DNA from: Verrucomicrobiales bacterium
GTDB lineage: Bacteria; Verrucomicrobiota; Verrucomicrobiia; Verrucomicrobiales; DEV007
Reading direction: 5' to 3'
Length of the DNA: 64,000 nucleotides
Assembly: GCA_029233965.1 (NCBI GenBank)
Contig: JARGOP010000001.1
Coordinates: 62,001 to 126,000 of the forward strand
A program made the translations under genes and the position numbers. Below are positions 58,488 to 62,442 of this stretch, in pieces; the first letter of the stretch is position 1, and each line of letters begins with the position of its first letter. Under the pieces are notes generated by a model. That model had not been told where the DNA came from. It was given only the letters and a program-made list of their open reading frames with translations, and made no database searches.

Positions 58488-58507
58488 CGAAACTCTCACG
58501 AGTTTCG
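58488..58507. repeat. GTAG-type REP-like hairpin core (copy A)
   Basis: cgaaactc-tcac-gagtttcg. Confidence 0.75.
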
Positions 58508-58530
58508 CGACGGAGAGGACGAACGATGTA

Positions 58531-58564
58531 GGTGTAGCGAAACTCGTGAGAGTTTCGCTACACC
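58531..58564. repeat. GTAG-type REP-like hairpin (copy B), perfect 15-bp arms
   Basis: ggtgtagcgaaactc-gtga-gagtttcgctacacc; overlaps the methyltransferase stop codon. Confidence 0.85.
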
Positions 58565-58936
58565 TGTCCCAGGCTCGCTAAGACTTCCAGCACTTCGCTG
58601 ATCTGCTCTTCGCGCTTTACTGATTGGCGGCCGAAGGCGGTGGAGAGGGCTTCGGGATCTGGGCCGGTTTCGGGGAGGAGGGTTCGGATCGCGGTGACTT
58701 GATCGGGCAAACGATCGGGCCAGGTGAGTTTCTTTGCCTTGGTTGCGGCCTTCTTTTTCGCGGCGGGCAGGGCGAGCTCGGATTGAGTCGAGGTCGCGTC
58801 GTTCGCATCACCGTCGGGATTCTGGAAATCGGGGCGGAGCCAGCGGATCCGGCCGGCCTTCTCCTCGGCGGCGCGTTCGTGATTGAGAGCGACGAGGCGT
58901 TCGAGGAGTTCGTTTTCCCAGGCGTCCTGATCGAGC

Positions 58937-58960
58937 GTAGCGAAAGTGGTGACACTCTCG
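58937..58960. repeat. GTAG-type REP-like hairpin (copy C), inside coding sequence
   Basis: gtag-cgaaagtg-gtga-cactctcg (one stem mismatch). Confidence 0.55.
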
Positions 58961-58987
58961 GCGTTGGCCTCTGAGGCGGCATCGGGT

Positions 58988-59011
58988 GTAGCGGAAGCGG
59001 CCACGCTTCCG
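58988..59011. repeat. GTAG-type REP-like hairpin (copy D), inside coding sequence
   Basis: gtag-cggaagcg-gcca-cgcttccg, preceded by ggt as in copy B. Confidence 0.7.
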
Positions 59012-59037
59012 ACAAGCGGGCTCGCGGGTTCGGCGGT

Positions 59038-59061
59038 CGGAACGGTGGCCCGTTCCGCTAC
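59038..59061. repeat. GTAG-type REP-like hairpin (copy E, inverted), inside coding sequence
   Basis: cggaacgg-tggc-ccgttccg-ctac. Confidence 0.7.
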
Positions 59062-61826
59062 GGGGTTTCCGGCGTTTCCGGGGCGCTTTGCCCAGAGATC
59101 ATCCCAGCCGTAGGCGTGGAAGACCGCTTCGTCGAGGTCGTCGTGGATTTGCTTGAGGACGGAGACGAGGCCGTCGTCGTGGATTTTGCGTTCCTTCGGG
59201 GTGAGCGGTTCGCCCGAGCGCAGTTTTTCGAGGACGTTGTAGATCCCCGTCAGGGTCAGGTCGGGGTGGAGTTCCTGCTGCCGCTTGCGGTGGGCGTCGA
59301 GACGTTCCCCGAGGTCGCGGATGCGTTCGCGCGTGGCGGCGTCCGGGTCGGGGAATGGGAAGGTTTCGAAGCAGCGGGTTTTATTGTAGCGGGGATCGTT
59401 TCCAACGCCAAGCCTTCCGCCGGAACTCAGCGCCCACTTTTCGTGTACTGCGGATGATAAAGTTCCCAGAAAGAAAGGATCATCGAGCGCGATAACAACG
59501 ATTGTTCCTTCCGCAATCGTTGTTTTTGGTTCGAAAGCAAAAAAGCGAAACTTTGAGGTTTCTGGCGTTACGATCTGCAGCGAAACACCTCGCAGCGCTT
59601 TTCTGAAAGACTTTCTCGGCTCGCCAAACATCCACCATTTTTCCCTGTAGGATTCACGATTGTTTTGATCTCTCTCCGGTTTAACGGCAATCAGCAGATG
59701 TTGGTAGACGCCCGGATAGCGTTGAGCTAATTCTCGCTCTTCGAGATGTGAACAATCAATGACCTTACGATATTTGCGATTTTGAGTTAATTCACGTGCC
59801 GTCAGATAAGGACAGGTTATTTCCTCTGCGTCGCGCGGATGAGTCGCTGGGTCATCGCCTAAAACAAAGCCTTGTCCAAACAGCTTTACGCCGGGGCACG
59901 ATATCCCACGATTAGCTTGCAGCTTCTGCGCTCCACTGAGGCTCGCTCCGATTGTTAGCGCTGGAGTTATGATTCCGGCATCCTGACCGAATTCGACAAT
60001 TACCTCTCCATCACCTATCTGATTTTCGCGAGTCACTTGGGCCAAATTTCCAACACTTGCATTTCGAACTCCAACCGTCATTGCGATGCGAACACTCGCT
60101 CCATCTTTCGAATCAACCCAAGGATGATCGGGTATAGCGAATCCAAGACTAATTCCCCCTTCGGACAAGTGCTTCGCAATCGTTCTCTGATTGAATCCTT
60201 GTTTGATGCTATTCGTCGAAATAAGTCCGAAACGTGAAATTTGTTTGTCGGCCAGAAGCTCAGCTGAGATGTGCCACCAATAGATCACAAAATCGGACGA
60301 GTGACTGAGTTCTGGATAGGCCGCCCTAAGTGCCTTTGTATAGCCATCGCCGAGTGCTTCCCGCATTACCTTATCCCCCACAAACGGCGGATTCCCCACC
60401 ACATAATCCGCTTCGGGCCATTCCGGCCGCCTTGGGTTTGTGTAATCATAGAGCACTTTCTTCGCGCTCTCGTCGGGCACTTCTTTCCCGGTCACGGGAT
60501 GCGGCCTCGTCGTGATGCCGTCCCAGATTTGCACGACCTTCCCCTCCGCATCGCGGCGCGGGATCTTTTCATCGTAGGCGAGGACGGCGTCCTGATGCAG
60601 GATCGTGTTTTGCTTCGGCAGGAGCGGGCGGTCGTTCGTGTCGGCCTTACCGGTCGTTTTGAAATGCCACTGAAAGTAGCCGATCCACAAGACGAGTTGA
60701 GCGATGGAAACGGCGGAGGGATTCAGCTCCATCCCGAAGAACTGATCGGGACGGACCTTGAAGCTGTCCATCTCCAGGGTCCGGTCGCCGCCGATGCGCT
60801 CGAAGAAGTCCAGCACCTCCGCCTCCAACTGCTTGAGGTGCTCGAGCGTCACGTAGAGGAAGTTCCCCGAGCCACAGGCTGGATCGAGGATCCTGAGCCG
60901 GCAGAGCTCGTGGTGAAACTGCTCCACCTCGGCGCGGGCTTTTGACTCTTTCTCCTGCTCCAGCAAGAGGACGGCAGCGGCCTTGACCGACTCCCACTGC
61001 TCGCGGAGCGGTTCGATCACGGTCGGCTCGATGAGGCGCTCCACGTACGAACGCGGCGTGTAATGCGCCCCGAGCTTGTGTCGCTCGCGCGGGTCGAGAG
61101 CGCGCTCGAGCAGGGTCCCGAAGATCGCCGGGTCGACCTCGGTCCAGTCCGCCTTCGCCGCATCGATGAGGAGATCGACCTGTTCTTTCGTCAAGGGCAG
61201 CGCGGTCGCATTTTCAAACAGCCCGCCGTTGAAGTGAGCAATCTTTGAAAAAGCAGCGCCGAGTAATCGGTCCCGGTCGACATTTCCTTCCACAGGGTCG
61301 TGACGAGGGTGGGAAAGCTCGCGGGGTTTTCATCGACCTTTTTCAGGAGCTCAAGGAAGCCATGCTCCGGCAAGAGCCCGATGTCCTCCGCGAACATGGT
61401 GAAGAGACAGCGCTGGAGGAAGACCGCGACGACTTCGGGATCGTGCTGTTCCGCTTCGAGCGATTTCGCGAGCTTCGCGAGCCGGTCCGCGATGTCGCGG
61501 GTGACCTTGGCAATGCGCTTCGACGGGTCGAGCGAATGCGGATCGGTCCAGATCGCACGGAAGAGCTCGCGAACCTCCGGCTTACGCAGGTCTTCGAGGG
61601 AGATCCGGTGATTTTTCGGATCGGGGAAGCGCTGGTAGCGTCCTCCGGAGACGGTGAACTCGGCGTAGAGTTCGAAAACATAGCCGATGTCGCAGACGAT
61701 GAGAAAAGGCGGTCTCCCCTCACCCGCGGGAAGATCGCGGATGTAGCCCTCGGCCTGGGCGTGGGCGCGCGTCATCGCTTTATCATAGCCCGCCGTGCCG
61801 CGCTTCCCGTGGCCAAGCGCTGACTT

Positions 61827-61857
61827 CACAGGGTTGGATGCCTGACTTAACCCTGTC
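61827..61857. repeat. 31-bp palindromic element (family B, copy 3) inside the methyltransferase gene
   Basis: cacagggtt-ggatgcctgactt-aaccctgtc. Confidence 0.65.
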
Positions 61858-62179
61858 TGGTCGGCCTTCGCCGCCGCCTCGACGCCCTGTTTCGTCTCGA
61901 GGACAAAGTGTCCGGCTCTATACAGATCGATGAAGCGTGCCGCTGAGGAACCGTCGGCTTTATGATGCGTGATTGCCCGGTCGAAGGTGTAGACATTTGC
62001 CGAGGCGCGGCCTGCGCCGGTTCCGGATGCGGGAGGTCGAGAAGGTCGCACAGCTCCGTCAGAAAAATCTGGTAGTTCGCCCGCTCCCGCCCACCACTCG
62101 GACTCCAGCGGGTGATGAAGTCATCGATCTCAGATTCCAGTACGTCGGGCATGAAAAGGAGTAAGAGAAAGGGAGGGAA

Positions 62180-62214
62180 TTTTCAACTTCCAAGGTTCAA
62201 CCCTCAAGGTCGAA
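62180..62214. repeat. Heptad array H3
   Basis: ttttcaa cttccaa ggttcaa ccctcaa ggtcgaa. Confidence 0.5.
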
Positions 62215-62252
62215 GTGGGCCTTGGCTGATCCTCTGCCCGAACTTCTCACGA

Positions 62253-62395
62253 GCCTGTTGCAAAAGGAGTCCGCAAGGAGCCAATCCATGTCTATCCTCA
62301 AAATCCATGTTGAATCCATGCAGAGAATTCAGGAGGCATGGGTTGTAACGGATGGAACATGCCTTTCACGGATTAGGTTAGGATCTGCAACAGGC
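62253..62395. mobile_element. 143-bp MITE-like non-coding element with terminal inverted repeats and target duplication
   Basis: Ends gcctgttgca...tgcaacaggc; flanked by tctcacga at 62245-62252 and 62396-62403 (alternatively 12-bp TIR gagcctgttgca with TSD tcac). Confidence 0.75.
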
Positions 62396-62442
62396 TCTCA
62401 CGAAGTTCGCTACCGGTTGCGAATGGGCGCGACTTCCGGGAC

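Follow-up and report, generated by a model that had tools for sequence, protein, structure and literature searches.

Known GTAG-tagged repeats

GTAG repeats were described in Verrucomicrobia, including Opitutus terrae, by Di Nocera et al. (2013; PMC3733652). The available text of that paper reports complementary stem changes between GTAG subfamilies, RAYT genes flanked by GTAG repeats and intragenic REPs; a cognate RAYT is presented there as usual, without being obligatory in every GTAG-REP genome. The window analyzed here, a 64,000-nucleotide stretch of a Verrucomicrobiales draft genome, carries hairpins that agree with GTAG-tagged REPs as portrayed in that text: GTAG lies directly at the stem (6-9 bp there), the loop is short, and copies form head-to-head and tail-to-tail dimers and arrays, fall into subfamilies with complementary stems, occur within genes and are linked to RAYTs. 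They differ in the loop, which in the repeats described there has mostly 2-3 nt (TY or CMA) and is here a 4-nt GNNA (GTGA, GCCA); the same text does not name the families of this lineage. The kind of repeat is therefore already known (Di Nocera et al. 2013), and what is new is the Verrucomicrobial family, which comes with a testable recognition rule.

RAYT-REP recognition is only partly understood, and bench work on three systems has shown it to differ among them. Among these purified systems, group 3 enzymes need particular bases in the loop (for Sm, G13; for Mb, T12, T13 and A15) and tolerate most changes in the stem, which is mostly less critical (PMC8266576). Our repeats share the perfect palindromes and the GTAG head of the group 3 TnpAREP/REP systems of Stenotrophomonas and Marinomonas, unlike which they carry GNNA rather than a 3-nt GCT or 4-nt TTTA loop (PMC8266576). 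As far as sequence comparison reaches, the Verrucomicrobial hairpins behave as predicted for group 3 (subclass 2.5), with a GNNA loop, but the RAYTs differ, having L-Q where the Stenotrophomonas and Marinomonas groups have W-Q. The y/z REPs and BIMEs of E. coli (group 2) likewise consist of two REP subtypes alternating in inverted pairs, and their TnpAREP is also a Y1 HUH transposase; unlike the repeats here, those of E. coli depend on a bulge, have longer stems and are not read at the loop (PMC8266576). Dozens of aligned natural REP systems, with a fixed head and loop, variable stems and unequal wings, predict which bases matter.

Hairpins in the window

A first-pass annotation made from the sequence alone had listed six palindromes in the window, and all six were recovered at, or a few bases from, the places where it had put them (Table 1). 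Copy F (CGAACTTC) deviates from the CGRAANNN consensus that it wrote for them. It also read the hairpins as GTAG-headed REPs mobilized by a RAYT, and this reading is supported by RAYTs flanked by matching hairpins in congeners and by the GTAG heads found at 39 of 68 RAYT loci (see below). We put the probability at about 0.9 that these hairpins are GTAG-type REPs, that is, non-autonomous single-stranded DNA mobile repeats, many of them organized as REPINs, spread by a small HUH/Y1 RAYT.

Table 1. Coordinates of the REPs and associated features, counted from the first nucleotide of the window.
Feature	Position	Strand	Description
REP A	58488..58511	-	GTCG-CGAAACTC-GTGA-GAGTTTCG; stem and loop 58488-58507; degenerate minus-strand head GTCG at 58508-58511; DNA fold -7.8 kcal/mol
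REP B	58530..58565	.	36-bp perfect palindrome AGGTGTAGCGAAACTC-GTGA-GAGTTTCGCTACACCT; GTAG...CTAC part 58534-58561, DNA fold -12.6 kcal/mol, z -7.1
REP C	58937..58960	+	GTAG-CGAAAGTG-GTGA-CACTCTCG; one stem mismatch; within MmeI-like ORF
REP D	58988..59011	+	GTAG-CGGAAGCG-GCCA-CGCTTCCG; G-type wing; within MmeI-like ORF
REP E	59038..59061	-	GTAG-CGGAACGG-GCCA-CCGTTCCG; C-type wing; within MmeI-like ORF
REP F, split by MITE	62239..62413	-	empty site GTAG-CGAACTTC-GTGA-GAAGTTCG; arms 62239-62246 and 62402-62409; head CTAC 62410-62413
MITE, 143 bp	62253..62395	+	terminal inverted repeats GCCTGTTGCA/TGCAACAGGC
MmeI-like methyltransferase/restriction ORF	58558-61293	-	domain search
In-frame insert of about 45 residues (about aa 737-787)	58935..59085	-	contains REPs C, D and E; homologue alignment

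REP B has GTAG heads at either side (a "double foot") and reaches into the last bases of the MmeI-like gene. REP A is intergenic; the ends of the MmeI-like gene and of a gene that is PP2C-like, from reading its sequence, converge on A and B. Folding as DNA gives copies A, B, D and E a stability far above that of their shuffles, and C, with its one mismatch, is weaker. The window holds the word GTAGCGRAA 7 times, where 0.41 would be expected; its occurrences at 268 and 6627 have no hairpin and were set aside as chance.

A genome-wide family with covarying stems

The genome is a 4.83-Mb draft MAG of Akkermansiaceae type that is 96% complete. The pattern GTAGCGRAA-N10-TTYCG matches it 59 times, and a reversed-pattern control does not match at all. 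The covariance-model scan that the first-pass annotation had proposed as a check returned ~88 matches at E < 0.02, and a rule-based scan of fetched stretches gave 86 copies. The annotation had said that few further copies, or a head that is not conserved, would speak against it; copies are many and the head is kept. The family thus shows the features by which GTAG-REPs are recognized: GTAG (or GTGG) 5' of a short palindrome, and a high copy number (about 86-88) with a mostly extragenic location.

Since neither the loop nor the inner 3 bp is constrained by the search pattern, the inner triplets are a fair test of covariation. Pairing is perfect in 52 of the 59, which represent 17 different triplets, whereas shuffles give a mean of 5.8 and a maximum of 15; the compensating stem changes claimed for the window copies are thus borne out genome-wide. 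When distinct sequences only are counted, 20 of 26 inner triplets pair (shuffle mean 1.6). The loops of the 59 matches are GCCA in 44 and GTGA in 7, with a few variants. In an alignment of 18 distinct copies, 99.3% of cells are paired and 38 changes are two-sided, against 14.5 in shuffles, and slid controls collapse; these copies were preselected as clear members, so the cell count is illustrative and the 59-triplet result is the test. Few stem cells hold G.T pairs (6 of 472), 3 hold A.C and 4 other mismatches.

Covariation of this kind could in principle come from mutation rather than selection, if template switching at the replication fork rewrites one arm from the other (quasipalindrome correction). 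The nearly perfect pairing and the small number of single-arm intermediates would fit such a process, which by itself fixes neither the head and loop nor the opposite G/C wings described below. We consider it an unlikely source of the pattern, and one that may act alongside transposition.

Arrangement of copies and contig ends

Copies are solitary, paired head to head or tail to tail, or arranged in arrays, which is the inverted-pair/BIME or REPIN organization of GTAG-REPs. In the GCCA class, G stands opposite C at stem position 6 in all 28 close inverted pairs, which gives every pair one G-type wing (CGGAAG.. or CGGATG..) and one C-type wing (CGGAAC..); arrays inflate the number 28, but each separate locus still fits. 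Copies D and E of the window are the partners of one such tail-to-tail pair. Among the seven non-GCCA pairs five have the same base at this position, and since the GTGA class thus fails the rule, we claim it in this genome for the GCCA class only, and at RAYT loci (see below) as a general inequality of the wings.

Of the REP clusters, 13% lie within ORFs of at least 300 aa; for random positions drawn from the same stretches the share is 64%. Tandem REP arrays with near-identical spacers occur on three contigs (C8, C13 and C120), and identical copies occur at unrelated loci. Additionally, a REP is found within about 120 nt of 16 of the 302 contig ends, where simple arithmetic predicts ~0.7; therefore, the assembly breaks at REPs. 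For this genome, REPs explain the scattered hairpins, many of the breaks between contigs and the in-frame insert that a restriction-modification-type gene carries.

RAYT genes in this genome and in congeners

The first-pass annotation predicted a RAYT elsewhere in the genome and suggested comparing the flanks of Y1_Tnp/RAYT genes with the hairpin consensus. The genome itself, a 96%-complete draft that breaks at REPs, yielded no RAYT with these REPs as flanks, and the Y1/RAYT-like genes that it does have are of other classes, without such hairpins beside them. In congeners the prediction held, since there small RAYTs of about 190-220 aa are located between hairpins of this family. Four congeners have RAYTs (L071-L074; L091-L094) with GTAG or GTAA heads and CGAAnnn-GTGA (or GTCA, GTAA) hairpins on both sides, which resemble the GTGA class of the window. 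The RAYT of L075 is flanked by CGGAACTC/AGGAAAAC-CCCA hairpins and that of L078 by CCACGCTT/CCCCGCTG hairpins. The RAYT of L097 lies in arrays of GTAG-CGGAACTT-GCCAA and GTAG-CGGAATTT-GCGAA, which are close to the GCCA class of the window but have a 5-nt loop; the exact 4-nt GCCA/CGGAA class stands beside no RAYT that we found, L097 being the nearest.

The congener RAYTs carry the HUH motif PDHxH and Y-NP-R, match the NCBIfam family REP_Tyr_transpos, and have a sole relative in the PDB, the E. coli TnpAREP 4ER8 (E = 2e-7). By sequence they qualify as members of the Y1_Tnp superfamily with an HUH and catalytic Tyr core. W94-Q95 is conserved in the REP-associated subclasses 2.2, 2.4, 2.5 and 2.7 (PMC6006769); the congener RAYTs have L-Q at this place (alignment A1, by eye), and because L-Q replaces W-Q we do not assign them to any of these subclasses.

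Of 34 genomes belonging to the genus, 12 have strong RAYT members, but not this one; across the order, the threshold applied gave strong members in 35 of 289 genomes. Three congeners (G015, G032 and G031) also have REPs and no such RAYT, which weighs against the RAYT explanation, and REP counts do not correlate cleanly with RAYT presence across congeners. The family could be a fossil in the present genome, its RAYT lost and its copies persisting through local tandem amplification and vertical descent. This is a sub-question of the RAYT explanation and compatible with it, and the draft without a cognate RAYT, the tandem arrays with their near-identical spacers, and E. coli strains that are reported, in the available text of PMC3733652, to have lost the RAYT and retained REPs are all in its favor. 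It has to be set against the identical copies at unrelated loci and against the REPs near 16 of 302 contig ends, which make a REP-bounded RAYT exactly what an assembly would drop. We regard the fossil state as possible, at somewhat less than even odds; because the assembly breaks at REPs, the cognate RAYT may be either lost or absent from the draft.

The genome's own Y1/RAYT-like genes (L001-L007) were considered as cognate transposases and rejected, as no such GTAG hairpin adjoins them. One of them, an IS200-like Y1 gene (L002, about 1153-1965, contig C126), lies amid long tandem repeats, translated RWLRNNATAFRERAGLMIGGHASDAEGIPAIS, which may represent a further REP-like family served by a transposase of its own. 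At L097 (1495-2169, minus strand) the start of the RAYT frame crosses its own flanking REP, and REP sequence may be translated there as the N-terminus of the protein.

A head-and-loop rule across related RAYT loci

A scan of named genomes yielded 68 usable RAYT loci, nearly all from Verrucomicrobiota and Planctomycetota; close relatives among them are UBA5020, UBA2367 and UBA2381 (Akkermansiaceae). When one stem mismatch is allowed, GTAG is the top pre-hairpin head among the 256 tetranucleotides, occurring at 39 loci (33 with at least two), whereas its shifted readings reach 19 and 11, no unrelated head exceeds 9, and the median is 2. With strict stems the lead of GTAG is small (11 loci), and the one-mismatch tally is clearer because many of the relatives' REPs mismatch once at the stem foot. 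Of the 29 loci in a second set, drawn from the order and partly overlapping the first, 21 have GTAG hairpins. Among hairpins of the strict 24-nt form, taken from 33 loci, the loop begins with G in 91% and ends with A in 97%, its third base is a pyrimidine in 43%, and stem positions 2, 5, 6 and 7 are near-random (0.1-0.3 bits). A GNNA loop closed by a C-G pair would correspond to a very stable DNA tetraloop motif, a lead only, as a literature search did not bring that motif up.

Inverted partners differ on average at 2.0 of 8 stem bases and are identical in 11% of cases, against 0.7 bases and 70% for copies in the same orientation; the inverted partners are the more unlike at 25 of 31 RAYT loci, and the opposite is seen at 2. 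A quick tree shows a tendency for sister RAYTs to have similar REP stems, and one part of it holds most CGRAA-type REPs. RAYT loci of Limisphaerales (e.g. L179, L181-L184, L190-L192), a large sister clade, have no GTAG hairpin in their flanks and may use other ends.

Such hairpins might instead act mainly as RNA, as terminators or mRNA 3'-end stabilizers, so that the covariation would reflect RNA pairing under selection on transcripts. Roles of this sort appear for REPs in the available text of PMC3733652, copies A and B sit between convergent gene ends, and REPs are mostly extragenic. A transcript-level function, however, would leave unexplained the conservation of a GTAG head that is outside the hairpin, the scarcity of G.T pairs and the transposase genes flanked by the same hairpins; nor is the loop an RNA GNRA loop, given the frequent pyrimidine at position 3 and the predominance of GCCA in this genome. 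We therefore judge a mainly RNA role very improbable.

Under the REP/RAYT reading, we infer cutting, transfer and recognition as follows. A REP exposed as single-stranded DNA would fold, and the RAYT would be expected to bind its head and loop, cut beside the hairpin and move the REP pair elsewhere, recognizing the GTAG head, the length of the perfect 8-bp stem and the GNNA loop while leaving most bases of the stem unread. The stem would drift as compensated pairs, since pairing would be required while the inner base pairs are hardly read. Inverted partners retain unequal inner stems (the G-type and C-type wings), which might block their annealing into one long hairpin or mark left and right ends. 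That a RAYT clade spread over Verrucomicrobiota and Planctomycetota reads a GTAG head and a GNNA single-stranded loop on an 8-bp stem, with most stem bases free and two unequal wings obligatory in each system, has in our estimate about an even chance. If it does, the sequence of a REP stem would amount to a barcode of copy lineage, neutral and self-compensating.

REPs within the MmeI-like gene

Copies C, D and E lie in a segment at which the alignment with homologues stops (at about residue 737) and restarts (at about 788). The segment is absent from the seven homologues that span the region, which are only about 50-60% identical to the window protein. No precise pair of empty and occupied REP sites from close strains was found, the congeners being too distant for clean empty sites. 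Homologues are single ORFs of about 1180-1296 aa, and the window gene (58558-62152, minus strand) is split into overlapping frames (61847-62152, 61191-62051 and 58558-61293); it is frameshifted or mis-sequenced, and because the frame breaks near the 5' end the gene may already be inactive. In one congener, the homologue of this gene is followed ~300 bp downstream by a RAYT that has GTAG hairpins of its own (L096; G004:C87 205764-209281), so that one species has REPs and another a RAYT at the same genomic place.

A MITE in REP F

The first-pass annotation reconstructed copy F as the empty site of a MITE, and the element is indeed there, splitting the REP into two arms. It is bounded by an 8-bp target duplication, TCTCACGA (62245-62252 and 62396-62403), centred on the REP F loop. 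Four copies of the MITE occur in this genome, two of them degraded; the copies that keep both ends (the one in the window and L123) each interrupt a GTGA-type REP at its loop, and these two cases suggest that the MITE targets REPs. Some insertion sequences have been described as targeting REPs (Tobes and Pareja 2006, PMC1525189; ISPpu9, PMC8450116). The MITE resembles them in sitting in a REP palindrome and is unlike them in being a 143-bp MITE with an 8-bp target duplication in a GTGA loop, and we regard it as a new instance of known REP targeting. Short matches to its AATCCATG-rich core (about positions 30-122) are found in five congeners (L258-L276; G005, G025, G030, G032 and G004), and the core may be an older and wider repeat.
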